NCBI RefSeq assembly: GCF_010015585.1 | Contig: NW_022985071.1 | Coordinates: 1 to 64,000, forward strand | Source of the DNA: Eremomyces bilateralis CBS 781.70 | Lineage: Eukaryota; Ascomycota; Dothideomycetes; Eremomycetales; Eremomycetaceae | DNA: 64,000 bases | Direction: 5' to 3' | In this document: positions 1 to 12,303 of the stretch, piece after piece | How the letters are laid out: the number at the start of each line of letters is the position of its first letter | How positions within the stretch are numbered: the first letter of the stretch is position 1 | Notes under the pieces: model-generated | Seen by the model: only the letters and a program-made list of their open reading frames with translations | Told to the model about the DNA's origin: nothing | Databases searched by the model: none | Made by a program: the position numbers and the translations under genes

Positions 1-30
1 CAGTAGCGGAACTTGCAGGGGCCAATCAAC
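1..30 (+). repeat. left terminal inverted repeat of the transposon
   Basis: These bases match the reverse complement of 7341-7370 at 29 of 30 positions. The single difference is at base 7. Similarity drops sharply after base 30, where the shared subterminal motif takes over. The repeat might extend left of the window, which cannot be checked here. Confidence 0.9.
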
Positions 31-240
31 GGTGGATCAACGGTTGAATGGAATCAACGGTGGATGGATGGTTGAATCTTGGACGACGTATAGAAATGAT
101 ATACGTGGAAGGTGCTATACCGTGGATTACGAAATACCGTGGATCAACGGTAGATTCCGGTACACGAAGTTGAAAATTCCTCGAGGATTCCGATAAACCG
201 TTAATTCACCGTTGATTCACCGTTAAACTTCAACCACTGA
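12..240. repeat. left subterminal motif array
   Basis: About seven copies or near-copies of CAACGGT or its complement ACCGTTGA lie here in both orientations (for example near 29, 36, 54, 145, 200 and 215). The same motif fills the right end. In plant CACTA elements such subterminal motifs bind the accessory TnpA protein. That role is inferred here by analogy. Confidence 0.75.
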
Positions 241-396
241 ATGAGTTCTTCTATGGATGCCACCACTCTGAACTGTGTGTCGTTTTATCTAAAAGCCCAT
301 TCTACCATCTGTGCCGCCATCGTCAAGCGCATTTAGCTTAGAGATCTCTGTCTGTAATCATTGTAAAACACTTTCCTTGCAATGAAGCTATAGAAA

Positions 397-1802
397 ATGT
401 CTACTGGACAGCAGAACTCGGTCTTAGATGCGCAGGCTCCTTATCCTCTTCTCGATTCTGACGATGAGAATCCCTCTGTTCGGGAAGATTCCCTTTCTCC
501 ACGCGTAAGTTTACTTGTTTTTATATCCCTATGAATCATTTACTATGATTTCCGAGTAAATCCCATATATATTGTAGTAATTGATTCATTTGGTGGTGAA
601 GGCACACAAGCGACAGCGCCGCGAAGAACTCTCTGCGCCGAAGAAGCGCAGTAAGGGGACGAAGAACGGACAAGCGTCCCAGTCCGAGCTTGATTTCCTG
701 TCTCAAGCAAAGAAATTTGGGCGCGAAACTCGGTGGAGTTGGTTCCTCAACCATGACACCGATGCCTATCCTTCGTTGATCCGGAAGGTATATGGCCAGG
801 ATTTTCCAGCCGAAATGACTGCGGATTCTGCCCTCTGGCGCCGGGCCAAACAGGTCTTTAAAGACCAAGTCAAAACGTTCAAGGCCCAAACCATCGAGAA
901 GATGAGAGTAAGTTCAAAATTCTAAGTCCCCAAGTCTAGATTTCCATTTCCCCCTTCTAGATCCCATTTTCAAGTCCAGATCTCATTTCCCCCTTTAGAT
1001 TTCTCTTTTTAAGTCCATATTCCATATCCCAAGTCCAGATCTACATTTCCAAGTCCATTTCAAGTTCAAATCAAGTTTAAATCTCCAGAACGCTATATTT
1101 AACTCCAGATCTATTTGTCCAAATCTAGAATTCAATGTTTAAGTATTTAACTACTATGTATGTAGGACTGGCTCGAGCAGAACGTACTCCTGAATCAAGT
1201 CTTGTCTCGACTAGATTCCGCTGGTGTTGCCCTCCATCTCGGCGAAAAGTTCTCTTCGGAGGATTTCCTTAACGTATGGTATTATATGAAGGGATATCTA
1301 GATGTAGATAAATCCTCTCAATTGGGGGAATTTTATTGCAAGTGTAAGTTATATATTTCATATATCCGCGTTTTATCTCTTGTGTTTTGTCGAACTATGT
1401 TTTATCTAGTTGTCCTTTGAATCTGGATTTTATCCATCTAGATGTATATTCTGTCTAACTGTGTCCTGGCATTTGTCCATTTAAAGCCGCATTTTGCCCA
1501 TAATCTAACGTAAAATAGCCATGTTTATGTCCCTGGGCTCGTTCGTGTGGGGGATTGTTCGGGCGGAGCGTATAGAGAAGACTGGCTCCGAAACGGCGAA
1601 ATCCAAGCTTCATAAAGCTTGGTATTCAATGTGCCTTGCGGAGCCGTTTGAGGACGTGGATAGGGAGTGTTTTAAAGAGCTATTTAATATTAGCTCTGGG
1701 CAGAGGGACCCTACACCGCGTCAAAATGACGCTACACTAGCGACAATGTCGTTTGCACTTATAGCCCCCCCTCCTCACCCCCGCGACTCTAGGTCCGGTT
1801 AG
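397..1802 (+). CDS. transposon accessory protein, four exons, unknown family
   Basis: Proposed exons are 397-504, 602-907, 1166-1343 and 1519-1802, giving about 291 residues with all phases consistent. Donors are GTAAGT for all three introns. Acceptors are AAG at 601 and TAG at 1165 and 1518; the TAG at 577 is rejected because it would bring an immediate stop. The protein starts MSTGQQNS and has an acidic N-terminus, then a basic block (AHKRQRREE...KKRSKGTKN, a possible nuclear signal), then a mostly helical, Trp-rich middle (RWSWFLNHD, ALWRRAKQVFKDQ, DWLEQNVLLNQVLSRLD) and a proline-rich tail. No family was recognised. Its place beside the transposase and its basic character suggest a DNA-binding TnpA-like role, which is inference. 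Exon 1 and the first acceptor are the least certain parts. Confidence 0.6.
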
Positions 1803-2758
1803 TCCCCGTTCTTCTCCCCCCTCTCCTCTCTCCTTTCTCCTCTCCTCCCTCCTCTCCCCCCTCTCTCCCCTTCCATTCGCGCTGTTTCGTTTTCTATGGT
1901 CTGTAGGACCGTGTGGTTGTTTTCTGTAGTCTGGTGTTTGTGGTCTGGTTTCTGTTTCCTATTTTCTTATGTAGTGTGTTTAGAACTGTGTTTTCTGCTC
2001 TGTATTTTATATTCCTGTGCTTTTCTATCAGATGCTCCGTTTTCGTGCAATATTTCTATAGTATAGTACTGCTTACACAGCCGCTAGGTGGCATTGTGCC
2101 TGGACTTCTAGATCTTTGGGATTCCCAACGTATTCTTGGGTATAGGATACATACACGGTATGTGGTTCTTAGACAACCAAACCCAGTTCCCTAACCCCTT
2201 AATATGTCTTGGCTTCTAGTTCCTCTAGGTCATCTCTACCGCCAATAGAAGACCTACTCCCTAATCTATATCTTTATAACCTAGTAGATGATGATCCGTT
2301 GCTAAGGATGGTTCCTAGTATACTTCTTATTCCGGCACGTATTGTCTACCTGCTATAGTGGATCCTACTACCCGCCTACCTGCCTGTCTGCCCGGAATGT
2401 AATTTCCTTTACTAGTTTTCTTTTGAATGATAAAGTAAATAGAATAGAATACGATACTATGTCTAATAGCCTACTGTATTCTCAATTGCGAGAACAACTT
2501 AGGTGCATACCGGTGGTGGATTTCGAAAATTGCAAAGTCCTGATACGCCAGTGTGCCTTCCATTTCTTATATTCCGTACCTGCTACAAACGTACTTAACA
2601 CATTAAAATTCCCACATGCAACCTCTTATCTACCACAGCCTCACCTGCTACAACAGAACTTACACTTACACTCTTCATTCTTAATCTTATCCTTATTTCC
2701 TATTCTCACTCGTATCATCAATCATCTCTATATACCCATTAGATCCGACCTCGTTAAG
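1803..2758. other. spacer between the two transposon genes
   Basis: It begins with about 75 bp of near-pure pyrimidine (CTCC-rich, 1803-1875) and continues AT-rich. The transposase frame stays open upstream of its proposed ATG as far as about 2342, so an earlier start or upstream exon is possible. Nothing else is recognised. It presumably holds the accessory gene's 3' end and the transposase promoter. Confidence 0.4.
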
Positions 2759-5700
2759 ATGTCTCGTATCCCTATTCGAGGCCTAGCGGATATACTCCTT
2801 GCCAAAACGACACAAAGGCATAGTAGGGACCAAGAAGGAAGCTCTTCAAAGAAGAGGAAGATTAAGGAAGAACTTGTGGACGATAGAGAATTCCTAGCTG
2901 GGTTTAGTGATGACGAAAGTGATTATAACGTCAGTCCTGACCTACATGCCGTAAGTATAATGGATATAATAAATCTGATAAATATTCAACAGAATGACTT
3001 ACAGGTAAATAGGATCTTGCCTCTGATGACCTTACAGAGAACCTCATTGGCCTCCAGACTGACCAGGCTGAAGTCGTTGACGATAATGAGACAACCCTTC
3101 TAGATCTACACGATCTTCGGCTGCTCGAGCAGTTCCAGGATCCTGAAGAGGAAGATATAATACCAACGGTTCCTGTCGATACTATCGATGAGGACGATAT
3201 AGAGACTGTTATATCTGCCACAGTTGGATATCAGCCATCTTTCACTGCCGCACCTTCTACCGCTGTATTTGACACGGTCGCTGGTCCTAGTCACGTCACT
3301 GCTGAGGCCACTGCGGCCATCCAACCGCCTGCGGACTTCGACGACTCAACACCTGTCCCCAACCCTCGAGCAGCCCCTACATCAGACTTTGAGGTTGCAC
3401 TCGGCCTATGGTGTCAAGAGGCAGGTATCTCACGCGCTCAGTGGACAGGCCTTCGAGAAATCCTTAATATGCTGAGCGATGACGCTGTAAAGAAGCTGCC
3501 AAAGGCCCTAGATACCCTGAAGCTACATGCTGTTGGCCAACTCCCTCTCCTTGAGCTCCGTCAGACCCCCATCAAGCTTAATATTGCCAAGCTGCCTGCC
3601 TCAAGGAGGAAAATCATTATGAGCAGAGCATTAGCAGCGGGTCAGGTTGCCACTGCGCCTGACAACCTCTTCTTCTTTAACCCTATCTACCTCTTCCAAG
3701 CTATTCTCTCATCAACGATCCGCGAGCGTATGCATATCGGAATGGCCCATTTCGTTGATGAGCCGGCAGAGCTCTGGCACTCTACCGCCTGGGCCTCTTC
3801 AATCCGCTACTCCTCCGGCGAGTTCCCGCGTCTCCCCGAAGGCCAGGTAGTCTTTCCGTCTGATATTGTACTATACCAGTGCAACGAAGCTATATGCCGC
3901 TGCCACACAGACGCTGACAAAAATCACATCGGTCGCATTCTCTCGTTTGGTAGAGACTACCGTAGCCAACGTGAGCATCGTGGCCCTATTGGATCGGTCG
4001 TCGTCGAGGTCCAAAAGATCGTTCCGTTCATCGATCTTATGGATACACGCCGGGATCTCTTGCTCATGATCATCAAGCTTGACCCTCTGCCAGAAAATAA
4101 GGAACTAGTGATCCTAGAGGATGATATTTCTATGGTTCTCGAGAGTGCTCTTACTCCATATACCTTCAACTTTGACATCTTCCTTGACTATGCCTTCGAG
4201 AGCAGCGTTAAGCTTAGAGACGACAAGAGCCATATTCAAGGCCAGCTCTTTATCCGCCGTATTTTCCGTGGGGACAATATCCGCCCTCTAAACCAGTCTA
4301 GGGCTATCCGTGGCCAGATAGAGATAGCGGAATATGGTCGCCAGTATCTCGTTGACAAGTTTAGCAAAAGTTCTAACATTATCTCTATTCCCCTGCTCGC
4401 CTTTCTTGACGGGTTCGGCTTATTTCGGAACATGTACCGTACGATTATGGGGTTCTATCTCTTATTAGCGCCTCTCCGCAGTTCAGACCGTAATAAGAGG
4501 CAGAATGTCTTCCCACTTACACTCGGCCCGCATGGCAGCAACTTTACAGAGGTTACCGATGCCCTTAGAGGTAGAATAACACAGCTCGAACGAGGCATTG
4601 ATATGCTTATCACCGGTAAGCAGTTTACCGTCTGCGTCTCTGTTATGGCATATATTGGTGATATGCCCCAGCAGCAGACCAATTCAGGCTTCCGATCTGT
4701 CGCCGCCGAATCTACTTGCAGGATGTGTCTTGTCGAGACTGCCCAACGTGGCCTCCTTGATTTTGATATCGAAGCCCGCGGCCGATACCACTATGAAGTT
4801 ATACGTCAGAGGGCTTCTATCCGAAGCAGACCTAACAAGATCCAGAGGAAGATTACGGCCGATAAGTTAGGTATGGAAGCAGAGGACCCGGCATTGATGA
4901 AACTGAGTCCTGCTCTTGATCTCGTCCTCTCCCGTCCTCCCGATCCTTTCCACTCTGAACTCAATGGCATCACGAAGCTTACGCACCTTCTGTGGAATGG
5001 AGATCTCTTGACAAAAAAGGCCGCAGCCGAATATGGTCGGTTGCTCCGCTCTTTTCCGTTCCCTCCCGGATGGGGTCGTCTCCAAGCTCCTGAGCACTAC
5101 ATCGGAAGCTACTCCCTTCAAGAGCACGCCCGATGGAGCGTTATTGCCCCCTGCCTGGCTCGAGTTTGGTTACGCGAAAAGCATATCCAGAATGCGTACT
5201 TCGAGGGCGTCCATATTGCGTTTAAAGATATTATGGTCGAGATTGGTGAATCTAGCAAGAACCCCAGCAGACAGCTTGTCCCAAACTTGATCGTTACGGC
5301 GTTATCGGCGATTGCCAAGTCTAACATGCTCTGCACTGCTTCTCACCTGACGCAAGGAGAGCGTCAAACTTTCGATACGGATATCAAGCGGTGCCGTGAC
5401 ATGTTTAAGCGGCTCTGCAGAGCTGCTGCTCTTGCGTCGTCGAGTCGTCGGACATCTGTTAATCCGCCTGCCTCAGATACTGCCCCCCAGGTAGGCGGAA
5501 AATCAACTGCTAGCCAGATAGTCGTCTCATCGATCGAGACGCCAGGGCCAATGCAAGGACAGACAGCCATAGATGGTGCCCTCACCACAAAAAAGGCCAT
5601 CCAGTTCCAACGGGATCAGCAGAGGCCAAATGTCCATATTGGTTTACATTTTCAAGAGGTTCTCCGTGAGTATGCCATCCCTGCTAACGCGGGTGTCCTG

Positions 5701-6609
5701 CCTGGTGAGAACAAGCATAAGGAGTACAAGAATGCCATCCTCCTTACAAATAAGCGCAACCCTGAGAAGGACCTCCTCTAGCGCGAGAATATTCGTCAAA
5801 CCCTCCGCCTCGCCCTTACCGGTGCCTTTCCTAATGCCAAGATCACTAAGCAGCTCCAAGACATTGACCAAGCCTGTCCAACGCTCTTCCGCACTCTGTT
5901 TCCACAGGAGACTATGCGTCTGGCGATCGATGAAGATAATACCGGCGATACCGTCGAGAACATCATCTTTGACGATGGTCATCGTAATCCTACAGCGCAG
6001 TCTAAGATCCAGCAGAAGTATTGCCGCGAGACGCTCAAGCTCCCTACACGCCCGTCACATATGACAGCAGGTTTCCGTGGTAATTTATCCTCTGCCTATC
6101 TCCGAGACTATGGGCGGAACGTACACCATATGGGAACCAGTGTCGTCGAGTGGTGGAAGAAGTTCTCGTTTGATGCCAATAATAAGAGGACTACTTTTGG
6201 ACGAGGTGACTTCATCCAGGTCCGTGGTACCACCCTTAAGGTATGCGGTATCGACGATATCTTCACGCATGAAGCGCTGCCCGGCTATAAGCGCCTGTTC
6301 CTCATCCTGACGCCCACCTTGCAACCCACCGAACGTGTCGATCCTGCGCCTACCTCACAACACACCGGATGCGTCAATCCTGTATCGACCTCGCAAGCCA
6401 CCGGACGTATTGACCCTATTCTCAAGCTCCCTCTCCTGCGTATTGAAGGCGAGGAGCAGCAGTTCTTCGTCGGCCTTCCTGCTATCGAAGCTACCAAGCT
6501 CTTTATCCTCCCCGTCAAGGAACACGACGGACATGACAATGAGATACCGTTGGACAAGGATTCGGACACGCTGCTATATGTAAACTGGAGCAAGATCCAC
6601 TTTATGTAG
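2759..6609 (+). CDS. CACTA/Tnp2-like transposase, interrupted by one in-frame stop
   Basis: Exon 1 is 2759-2950 (MSRIPIRGLADILLAK..., acidic and basic N-terminus) and ends at a GTAAGT donor. Exon 2 opens at 3013 after AAATAG and stays open to a TAG at 5779-5781, giving about 986 residues. The same frame then continues for 275 more residues to 6609, with protein-like sequence on both sides of the stop. Recognisable blocks are LWCQEAGISRAQW, then LLAFLDGFGLFRNMYRTIMG with a candidate catalytic Asp, then YIGDMPQQQ...CRMC, resembling the D-x-P...C-x-x-C block of Tnp2, and DPFHSELNGITKL, resembling the Tnp2 DxxH region. It would cut and paste the element by DDE chemistry. The stop is CAG-like in context, as a C-to-T change (for example RIP) would leave; sequencing error or readthrough remain possible. 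The family assignment is by motif only. Confidence 0.72.
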
Positions 6610-6710
6610 TGCCTGGCGCCAGACAAGCTTAAGATAGCTGGCTGTCAGGAGAGATAGATGAGACGGATCTGTGTAATAAGAAGGGCGCTCTGGTGGCTTG
6701 CAAACTATAC

Positions 6711-6777
6711 GATAGATGGATGGATGGATGGATGGATGGATGGATGGATAGATGGATGGATAGATGGGTGGATGGAT
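6711..6777. repeat. GATG/GATA tetranucleotide microsatellite
   Basis: About 16 units of GATG with a few GATA variants lie in the 3' part of the transposon, between the transposase stop and the right subterminal array. Confidence 0.95.
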
Positions 6778-7140
6778 TCTGATGGCTTACAAAGTGTATG
6801 ATGGATGGACGAGATGAATAGATGGATAGATCGCTGCACTGATGGCATCAAATGGGTGTCTGGGACCGATGGGACGAAAACAATACACCGGCATACACTT
6901 CCTACCGTGGGAGGTAAAGTCTCTCTACACCGACCACAGGAGCGCCGCACTACCTCTAACCCACCCAACTCTGTTCGACTCTTAACATGAAGGGGATTTT
7001 ACACGCGATACAGCGATGTATGTATAATACACAGGCTTTCCGATAAGCTTAGCAAAACATTCAAGCAGCATGGGGGGCTGGTTGTAACGAGTAAAACATT
7101 CCTGCAAGTGAACCACGTGATTAGTAGTCGATCTGCGGTG

Positions 7141-7350
7141 GACAAACCAATCAACGGTATAGACCCCGATCAACCGTTGATATACCGTTGAATAAGTCTA
7201 TACGTATAATGAAATCAACGGTGTAGGCGAAAATCAACCGTTGAATGCGTTATACGAAGATGCGAAATCAACGGGGAAACTTCGGTTGATTCGTATCAAC
7301 GGTTGATTTCTTTCAACGGTGGATCAACGGTATATCAACGGTTGATTGGC
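7141..7350. repeat. right subterminal motif array
   Basis: Roughly ten copies of CAACGGT or ACCGTTGA occur in about 200 bp (near 7150, 7172, 7185, 7212, 7232, 7267, 7297, 7314, 7325 and 7336), in both orientations and often as the palindrome-like CAACGGTTG or CAACCGTTG. It mirrors the left end and is not found at this density elsewhere in the window. Confidence 0.8.
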
Positions 7351-7370
7351 CCCTGCAAGTTCCACTACTG
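7341..7370 (-). repeat. right terminal inverted repeat of the transposon
   Basis: The reverse complement of this stretch reproduces bases 1-30 with one mismatch. It ends CTACTG, directly followed by flanking DNA starting CGTGTTGCAG. Confidence 0.9.
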
Positions 7371-7479
7371 CGTGTTGCAGTTGCAAGGGAACGAGGCAAC
7401 AAGGCACTCTTCCCAAGGCCGCCAGGCCAAAGAGCCATCAATCTGGGCCAGAAGCCCAAGACCGTTACATCCCTTTCGC

Positions 7480-7815
7480 TCAAGTCGAAAGCATGTTCCT
7501 AATAGTTGTGTCAAATTGCTCAGGTTCGCGGCCAAGTATTTGAGCCAAATTTGGGGTAACGGCTGCACATTCGCCATCGCGGATCGCATCAAACGCAGTT
7601 GTCCAGATAGGCGCCCAGTTACTACCCCGATATGTGAGATCAGTGTGGACCTGTGGCTGTTTGACATACTCATCCACAAGTACCTGACGGATCACGATTG
7701 GCTTATTGAGCACGCGGCTGAAGACATCCGCTGTTTCATTAAGAGACCGAGCACGAGGGCAAGAGGCGACTTGCTGCGTGTTGTTGGAAGGATTGAGCAG
7801 GTGGTCAACAGTCAA
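7480..7815 (-). pseudogene. C-terminal fragment of an NmrA-like NAD(P)-binding protein
   Basis: The last 80 or so codons read like the C-terminus of fungal NmrA-like/NAD(P)-binding Rossmann reductases: ADVFSRVLNKPI, then VDEYVKQPQVHTDL, then AAVTPNLAQILGREPEQF, and a normal stop. The preceding residues no longer fit the family, and no N-terminal GxxGxxG Rossmann motif was found upstream on this strand, so it is a remnant. It lies just outside the right end of the transposon. The larger part of the gene may have been lost before or during insertion, but this cannot be told from the window. Confidence 0.55.
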
Positions 7816-8278
7816 TACAACAAGTACAGGAAACAGATTGCTTCTTCTAAACGCAGCGTTAAATTCAAGTACAGACTGGAGTCAATGCGGCAATGCCATT
7901 CCTGCCTCCCGGCATTCATGACATCCTTACCCCACCAGCATTTGAACGCATTAGACAACAGGATCTGCTGCACCAGAAGGAGCAAACATAACGTCGTCGG
8001 GGGAATCCTTGTTCTGGCCTCTTTGAGAAGATAAATGGTCTTCCATGTCATCATACGCTGCGAGATGTGATGCATTCTGGATCGACGTTACGACCAAACC
8101 ACCTTTACGACGATTATTGGCGCTATCAACGTAAGCAAGGTCGGTCAATAATCCTCTCTCTAAGCCTATATCGATCTATCCTAGAGCCGCAGTTGAACGA
8201 CGTGCACTGCCGTCTCTTCCTTAATCCCAGGGTCAAACACTTGCTGATGTCTTACGACACATAAATACCTCTGTCGCC
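7816..8278. other. no recognisable gene
   Basis: Short open stretches exist on both strands, but none resembles a known family or has a convincing start. It probably belongs to the same decayed zone as the NmrA fragment. Confidence 0.4.
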
Positions 8279-9454: not shown

Positions 9455-10285
9455 CTACTGCCCGACCCCGCTGAAGAGGCCTCCGAAAAGCCCGCCGCCG
9501 CTGGCGCCAAGGCCGCTATTGCTGCTCTCGGCGAAGCCACCAGTCGATCCGCCGGATGAGCCACCGCTGCTCTGAGCAGCGCGGATGCGTTGCGCCAGGA
9601 ACTCGCCCGCGTCGTCCCCGTCCACCATGTAGGTCAGATGGGCCACGGTGATGATCAAGGTGCCGCTGCAGACAAGGTCGCCTATGGCGCAGATGATCTT
9701 GAAGTTCTCCGGGGGGATACCTTGGATCTTGCCGCGGGACTGCAGCTTCTTGGTGTCGCCGAAGGTGACGACGCCGGCGATGCGGGAAACGACTTGCGAA
9801 GGGGAGTCTTCGATGGCCTCGTGGGTGATGGCGGCACCTTGGCTATATGATGGTTAGAATGGGGTGGCGAGGTTGAAGAGCTGGGATTGGGCGAACCTGT
9901 AACCACCGGCGACGACGATGGAACCGTCGCATTGGGTAGCCTTCTGAAGCTTCGCCTTCATGTCGCGGACACCAGTGGGGTCACCGCCCGACGGGAGGAA
10001 GTTGGTGGTCAACAGCGCAGGATAGTCGACGCCCTCCGCGGCGACGTTCTCCTTGCCGAAGATGTCCTTGAGCTTATTAGCCGTGTTTGGACCGGCGATG
10101 AATCCGAAGTTGCCCGGCTCGGTCGAGCCACGAGCAAAGATGAAGATGACCGGTTTGCAGCCTTCTTCAGTGAACTCGCTGGCAGACATGCCGACACCGA
10201 ACAATTGACGGGCCTCGACTGGCTCTGCCACCGGGGCTGCGGTGGCGATGCCCGCAAGCAGGGTAAGAATGGAAGCAACCTTCAT
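9455..10285 (-). CDS. secreted cutinase
   Basis: Two exons, 10285-9897 and 9842-9455, encode about 258 residues. The intron (9896-9843) falls inside the Ser codon of the G-Y-S-Q-G nucleophile elbow: exon 1 ends GGT-GGT-TAC-AG and exon 2 starts C-CAA-GGT. The N-terminus MKVASILTLLAGIATAAPVAEP is a signal peptide, followed by FGVGMSASEF and IFARGSTEPGNFG, the canonical cutinase oxyanion block. The remaining triad is visible as Asp in GDLVCSGTL and His in VAHLTYMVDG. Cysteines at the family positions (EGCKP, TQCDGS, KIICAIGDLVC) suggest two disulfides. After the catalytic domain comes an unusual Ser/Gly-rich tail of about 45 residues ending GLFSGVGQ, longer than in the classic Fusarium enzyme. 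It hydrolyses plant cutin or short-chain esters outside the cell. The intron donor GTTCGC is weak but the frame join is exact. Confidence 0.9.
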
Positions 10286-10423
10286 GTTGGAAAGAAAATA
10301 TTGGAAAAAGATTTGGTTATCAAAGGACTGACTGTCCAGAGAAGCTCTGGGCTTGGGAATGAATGGAATTCAAGGTGTCGTTCAGGCCGTACTGACACTG
10401 TGGTCCGATGGTGATGCAACCCC

Positions 10424-11760: not shown

Positions 11761-12303
11761 CCCACTCTCAGATGAACTTTCGTGTGAGAGTCACCAAGCC
11801 GGCCATTGAGTCTGCAGGTCGTCCCACCCTCAGATGAGTTTTCGTCTGAGAGTGCACGGTCCATAGAGGCACATTACATGACCCGCACGGTCCATACTAC
11901 TTCTCACACTCAGACGAACCTGCCAAAATGTATGCATAATGCATTAGGAATACATTTATTATAGCCCAGTTTCTAAAGATTTGGTATATAATGTATTAGG
12001 GATATGTTCGTAATTCATTTCTAACCTATTAGAAGAGTTCGCCCAAAGCTGTGTTGGTTCAGAATGCTTTCAAAATGCATTTGAAATGCATTCCGTTGGA
12101 ACTTACATCTTGCCCCCAAGGCTCCGTGTCCAAAGGTTGCGACGGCAGAGCACAGAACAGCTGGTATAAGGTAGTGTAAGAAGGAAAGTTCATCTGAGAG
12201 CGGGCATTGTCATCTGAGTGTGGATGGTCTGTGTCTTTCGGCAAAACATATGAGTTTATGACCGGGTTGGCGATTCTCATACGAAAGTTCATCTGAGAGT
12301 GGG
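11761..12303. mobile_element. palindromic MITE-like element with six motif copies
   Basis: The ends form an inverted repeat of about 46 bp (11761-11806 against 12258-12303): the outer 23 bp, starting CCCACTCTCAGATGAAC, are identical and the inner part has five mismatches. The core CACTCTCAGATGAAC recurs as three forward copies on the left (11761, about 11824 and about 11908) and three reverse copies on the right (about 12186, about 12209 and 12287). There is no coding capacity. This fits a non-autonomous DNA element whose motif copies are transposase sites. No target-site duplication is obvious at the chosen ends, and no autonomous partner is seen in the window. Confidence 0.55.

Follow-up and report, generated by a model that had tools for sequence, protein, structure and literature searches.

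The first 7,370 bases of the window (the whole 64,000-nucleotide stretch of DNA that was analysed) very probably make up a fungal DNA transposon of cut-and-paste type that belongs to the CACTA/EnSpm-Mirage-Chapaev-Transib (CMCT) group. It carries a predicted gene for a DDE/RNase H transposase together with another gene, predicted to be spliced and read from the same strand. An earlier note on this DNA had recognized the general plan of an En/Spm element, and terminal inverted repeats (TIRs), motif arrays at both ends and two genes are indeed present. It had also proposed a CMC lineage. In the wide CMCT sense, this proposal is supported by an ordered series of D-D-C(2)C-H(3)H-E residues and by weak, sub-cut-off similarity to the Plavaka family in four of nine stretches of the transposase frame. 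The CACTA-like reading thus probably holds at the level of the clade.

Terminal inverted repeats and element boundaries

The limits of the element are set by two inverted repeats that are 87% identical over 47 bp:

1..47, forward strand: left TIR, as far as the window shows; located by inverted repeat match and a search with a 25-base core
7324..7370, reverse strand: right TIR, with 29 of its first 30 positions the same as in the left TIR

These 29 identities substantiate the matching 30-bp terminal repeats described in the earlier note. When the 25-base TIR core was searched with up to three mismatches, two sites were found in the 64 kb window, one at each end of the element, compared with none in 100 shuffles, and a chance inverted repeat is thereby ruled out. 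No second copy of the element was found in a search of the whole window, nor is an empty site seen, and the TIR pattern had no match in a viral contig collection or in a collection of bacterial and archaeal genome contigs.

As read, the ends are CAGTAG..CTACTG. The CACTA terminus of plant-type elements is absent from the ends as seen in this window, which starts at the left TIR. With the left end taken as the first base of the window, the termini would agree with the form 5'-CA..TG-3' reported for most CMCT elements (PMC12730594). Because the left TIR starts at base 1, no left flank, target-site duplication or true left terminus can be read, and the whole-looking state described in the earlier note is not confirmed on that side. 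On the right, the sequence outside the TIR is CGTGTTGCAG. The first two to five bases of this flank are CG, CGT, CGTG or CGTGT, and the 8-bp stretch that would serve for a duplication comparison is CGTGTTGC.

Subterminal arrays

A short motif, (T)CAACGGT, is repeated in both orientations near each end of the element, as in the subterminal arrays of plant-type CACTA elements:

24..230, no strand assigned: left subterminal array, built of (T)CAACGGT motifs; AACGGT in 4 forward and 3 reverse copies
7140..7349, no strand assigned: right subterminal array, with this motif again; AACGGT in 6 forward and 3 reverse copies

AACGGT or its complement ACCGTT occurs seven times in positions 1-230 and nine times in positions 7140-7370, giving 16 copies across the terminal stretches, each about 230 bp long. 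There are two further copies in the element interior and 25 in the other 56,630 bases of the window. Dinucleotide shuffling of both ends (1000 shuffles) yielded a mean of 0.69 copies and a maximum of 4, for a motif that had been picked after inspecting the sequence. The arrays that had been noted earlier at both ends thus stand well above the shuffled background.

The accessory gene

Between the left array and the transposase gene lies a frame that reads through four exons:

397..1802, forward strand: gene 1 (accessory), predicted, 291 codons; exons 397-504, 602-907, 1166-1343 and 1519-1802

In this gene model, which was made by eye, the three predicted introns (505-601, 908-1165 and 1344-1518) all have GT..AG borders, and the spliced accessory gene put forward in the earlier note is reproduced. 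The start of exon 2 may lie at 602, 611 or 617, each of which is in frame by eye, such that the first acceptor could shift by as much as 15 bases. A Pfam scan of gene 1 gave no match at E 10. A pattern search for exon 2 in the viral contig collection returned six matches, none of which was confirmed. Structure prediction for exon 2 without relatives gave a helical model (pLDDT 60.1) that we judged too poor for a fold search.

The transposase gene and its catalytic signature

The downstream gene was likewise modelled by eye, and its residues are numbered according to protein P0001, which starts at base 3013:

2759..6609, forward strand: gene 2, the predicted transposase gene, in two exons (2759-2950 and 3013-6609)
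4408..4410, forward strand: D466, putative first catalytic Asp (LAFLDGF), assigned by eye
4660..4662, forward strand: D550, putative second catalytic Asp (IGDMP), assigned by eye
4717..4728, forward strand: C569-R-M-C572, the only CxxC in 1198 codons
5635..5649, forward strand: H875-IGL-H879, H(3)H motif, assigned by eye
5707..5709, forward strand: E899, putative catalytic Glu (LPGENKHKEY), assigned by eye
5779..5781, forward strand: in-frame TAG, codon 923 of P0001, followed by 275 more open codons

The residues D466, D550, C569xxC572, H875xxxH879 and E899 appear in the order of the published CMC/CMCT signature. They were assigned by eye on one sequence, aided by known motifs of Tnp2 and Plavaka. 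The frame holds only two HxxxH or HxxxxH motifs, of which H875-H879 follows the CxxC and the other, at residue 241, precedes D466. The same order is found in mouse RAG1, which has HxxxxH in place of the HxxxH seen here (PMC4914335). The second Asp and the first Cys are 19 residues apart in both proteins (D550-C569 here, D708-C727 in mouse RAG1), and the last His and the Glu are 20 residues apart in both (H879-E899 here, H942-E962 in mouse RAG1). Other intervals differ, with 84 residues from Asp to Asp here versus 108 in RAG1 and 303 residues from Cys to His here versus 207 in RAG1 (PMC4914335). RAG1 itself derives from Transib (PMC12730594).

When the protein was shuffled 20,000 times, the signature with both D-to-C and H-to-E spacings within one residue of those in RAG1 arose 17 times. 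Under looser limits, it was recovered in 158 of 20,000 shuffles and in none of the five other window frames of at least 500 codons. These frequencies apply to spacing limits that were fixed after the protein had been inspected.

Profile, homology and structure searches

Nine stretches of the downstream frame were scanned against Pfam with E values up to 10, the fragments among them having been picked after reading the sequence. Plavaka (PF18759) was the sole family reached, in four of the nine stretches, with E values of 0.0014-0.0056 and scores of 16.4-18.4 bits against a cut-off of 26.3. One stretch of 287 residues scored 17.8 bits and the three others 16.4, 18.4 and 18.3 bits, and all four of these sub-cut-off matches cover D550 and the CxxC. 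The remaining five stretches (the 770-residue frame, bases 5914-6609, the full 1198 residues and two stretches outside the core) had no Pfam match. Two of these, the 770- and 1198-residue stretches, are the longest that include the region matching Plavaka. Among nine shuffles of a 200-residue fragment, none reached Plavaka and two reached unrelated models (E 0.15 and 0.22).

The Tnp2-type model (Pfam Transposase_21) was not matched at E 10 by any of the nine stretches. The Tnp2-like transposase of the earlier note is therefore not upheld as a sequence match, the only profile resemblance being the four sub-cut-off Plavaka matches. Models for hAT and KDZ transposases were also not matched at E 10 in the nine stretches.

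Searches for relatives of the transposase gave two pattern matches among viral contigs and seven among bacterial and archaeal genome contigs, none of them confirmed; the plasmid collection had no match. Since all the collections searched are described as viral, bacterial, archaeal or plasmid, these negative results carry little information on fungi. Two queries against solved structures (PDB) retrieved only chloride-channel chains (E 0.22-0.35), which we take as chance, and no RAG1 chain. A structure model of the core (4147-5424) made without relatives was worthless (mean pLDDT 34.4), and its query excluded the H(3)H motif and the Glu.

The in-frame stop and the age of the copy

The TAG at 5779-5781, absent from the earlier note, is the sole stop across the 1198 codons, which show no evident frameshift. 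It sits 24 codons past the putative catalytic E899, such that a truncated product would end with codon 922 and still keep every position of the signature. The C-terminal domain of RAG1 starts directly after the catalytic Glu and contacts the dimerisation and DNA-binding domain (PMC4914335). Given a stop so soon after the putative catalytic Glu, with the C-terminal part missing, the copy as read is probably non-autonomous; its ends, which look intact over the part that is visible, may still serve in trans.

Indices of repeat-induced mutation were calculated for the element and for four other stretches of the window. The whole element has a TpA/ApT value of 0.85 and a (CpA+TpG)/(ApC+GpT) value of 1.12, compared with 0.52-0.76 and 1.20-1.24 in the other stretches. 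Within the non-coding interval 1800-2758, these values are 1.27 and 0.86, a stronger skew toward repeat-induced mutation. Heavy mutation of this kind across the whole element is rejected on the indices, although they are slightly shifted in that direction. Because both genes are open apart from the stop and the repeats are nearly identical, and given these indices, the data fit an insertion of rather recent age that has undergone little repeat-induced mutation, as judged from this one copy.

Genomic neighbourhood

Neighbouring genes in the window encode a phage-type RNA polymerase, of the type found in mitochondria, as well as Leo1, ESF1, a protein with a Clr2 silencing domain and a ubiquitin C-terminal hydrolase. 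Further neighbours are XAP5, Mob1, a cutinase and a chorismate mutase. On the basis of these genes, the window looks fungal.

Alternative explanations

Membership in another superfamily (hAT, KDZ such as Kyakuja/Zisupton, or one not yet described), with C(2)C and H(3)H occurring in its transposase by chance, appears improbable. A simple hAT or KDZ element is rejected because Pfam models of neither type were matched at E 10 in the nine stretches. The hAT superfamily makes an 8-bp target-site duplication. Two Kyakuja families have 5'-CA..TG-3' termini, like the ends as seen here, but these same families are reported without TIRs, and 8-bp duplications are given for Zisupton (PMC12730594); the left flank lies outside the window in the present case. 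While loosely spaced versions of the signature arose in 158 of 20,000 shuffles, the tight spacing was rare (17 of 20,000), and the Plavaka similarity falls on D550 and the CxxC themselves. Another reading, which we consider less likely than not, is that the element extends further leftward, such that the window or record starts inside the repeat, the true termini lie further out (for example 5'-CACGCAGTAG) and CAGTAG is an artefact. The left TIR does start at base 1, and the bases CACG adjoin the right TIR when read inward. Read inward from four bases further out, the right end could start CACGCAGTAG, the inward reading being ..CACGCAGTAGTGG. If the left side also carried CACG, the terminus would be 5'-CAC, as in the CAC..GTG termini of fungal EnSpm elements (PMC12730594), and CACG resembles the CACGG terminus of the Cryptococcus element CNEST (PMC12810828). 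Nonetheless, CA..TG is a normal CMCT terminus. Moreover, if the window begins a record, as we presume, base 1 is more likely to be the real left end of the element, since sequence and assembly records commonly break exactly at junctions between repeats and unique DNA.

That this is a decayed, immobile copy and not a working element is a serious contender, which we rate somewhat short of an even chance. The in-frame TAG is consistent with decay, as are the mutation indices, slightly for the element as a whole and clearly for 1800-2758. Against this stand the absence of any other stop or evident frameshift in 1198 codons, the open frame of gene 1 through all four exons and the 29 of 30 identical TIR positions; in addition, another copy might still mobilise its ends in trans.

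Comparison with known elements

The earlier note had suggested a little-described fungal lineage, which is only partly right given that Sly1-1, Plavaka, ESTA, fungal EnSpm, CNEST and CNIRT6 have been published. CACTA-related elements in fungi were reported as early as 2006, in work on SmTRC1 (PMC1636069). In 2015, Sly1-1 of the filamentous ascomycete Neurospora crassa was described as an 11,534 bp two-gene CMC transposon with a transposase and a gene of unknown function (PMC4592977). The element studied here resembles Sly1-1 in its probable ascomycete host and CMC membership and in having two genes, TIRs and a D-D-E transposase that includes the C(2)C and H(3)H motifs (PMC4592977). By description, which is how the two were compared, it is smaller (about 7,370 bp versus 11,534 bp). 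In Chaetomium globosum, homologues of the two Sly1-1 genes are transcribed in divergent directions, whereas both genes lie on the same strand here (PMC4592977). The reference genes for Sly are NCU09969 and NCU09968.

Plavaka A and B, reconstructed from Agaricomycotina, are likewise fungal, have C(2)C and H(3-4)H placed after the second Asp and before the Glu, and make 2-3 bp duplications (PMC12730594). Their termini are TGT..ACA (A) or CATCA..TGATG (B), in contrast to CAGTAG as seen here (PMC12730594). With ends, as seen, of neither kind and scores below the Pfam cut-off, the element is not assigned to Plavaka. A single published tree covers fungal EnSpm, ESTA and Plavaka (PMC12730594). Two active fungal CMC elements of Cryptococcus offer further comparisons. 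CNEST, with about 7.2 kb and 33-bp TIRs, is near the present element in size but begins with CACGG, makes TA duplications and has a basidiomycete host (PMC12810828). CNIRT6 differs in its CACTG terminus, 3-bp duplications and basidiomycete host (PMC12810828).

Among plant elements, En/Spm, Tam1 and Tgmt* pair a transposase with a protein that binds subterminal repeats, and they carry arrays in two orientations at both ends, a plan similar to that seen here (PMC2613891). In plant CACTA elements, these arrays serve as binding sites for TnpA-like proteins (PMC2613891). Differences are the CACTA termini (13 bp in Tgmt*), the 3-bp duplication of Tgmt* and the Tnp2-type transposase (PMC2613891). Gene 1, for its part, resembles no Pfam family.

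Word searches of an open-access subset of publications, with terms other than CAGTAG itself, brought up no published element with CAGTAG ends. It is possible, though in our judgement unlikely, that the element represents a separate fungal, probably ascomycete, CMCT lineage, apart from EnSpm, Plavaka, ESTA and Sly. Such a lineage would be marked by its CAGTAG ends, by the stretch of 303 residues between CxxC and HxxxH and by a putative subterminal-repeat-binding partner of its own, unrelated and encoded on the same strand.

Proposed mechanism and significance

What the sequence itself shows is the anatomy: the repeats, the arrays, open frames that have usable splice sites, and the order and distances of the signature residues. 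From the arrangement of these parts, we infer that the transposase would occupy the 30-bp repeats with the help of the gene 1 protein, which would sit on the AACGGT arrays. The gene 1 protein might act there as a stand-in for plant TnpA/Tnp1, the helper on subterminal arrays. A D-D-E centre in an RNase H core, stabilised by a putative zinc site that C(2)C and H(3)H would form as they do in RAG1, would excise the element, which would then be joined to a new site with a duplication of 2-5 bp; past movement of the element is presumed.

The element reveals no new principle and is probably a new example of an already known kind of transposon. As a compact two-gene element with clear arrays, it would offer a handy fungal test of whether an accessory protein has a TnpA-like role. 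Were it a separate lineage of the kind outlined above, its two genes would parallel the TnpA/TnpD pair in a fungus, reached with a different helper protein.

Sequence features within the element and its right flank

Between the predicted accessory and transposase genes of the CACTA-like element (bases 1–7370), the intergenic stretch at 1800–2758 has a TpA/ApT index of 1.27 and a (CpA+TpG)/(ApC+GpT) index of 0.86, values that are shifted toward repeat-induced mutation beyond those of the remainder of the element. Shortly past the transposase gene, and still within the element, lies a tandem array of the tetranucleotide GATG (6711–6777, 16.8 copies).

The right end of the element is spanned by an open frame that continues into the flank (7213–8031; 273 codons from stop to stop), for which the top Pfam match, TYW2_N, falls under the cut-off (E 0.075). 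Approximately 2.5 kb to the right of the element is an ORF with a cutinase domain (9857–10369, minus strand), which, as judged by eye, likely carries a signal peptide.

Farther into the flank, a 543-bp stretch (11761–12303) is bounded by perfect 23-bp inverted ends (CCCACTCTCAGATGAACTTTCGT) and contains repeats of CTCAGATGA. No duplication was seen by eye. This stretch resembles a MITE with CAC-type ends.
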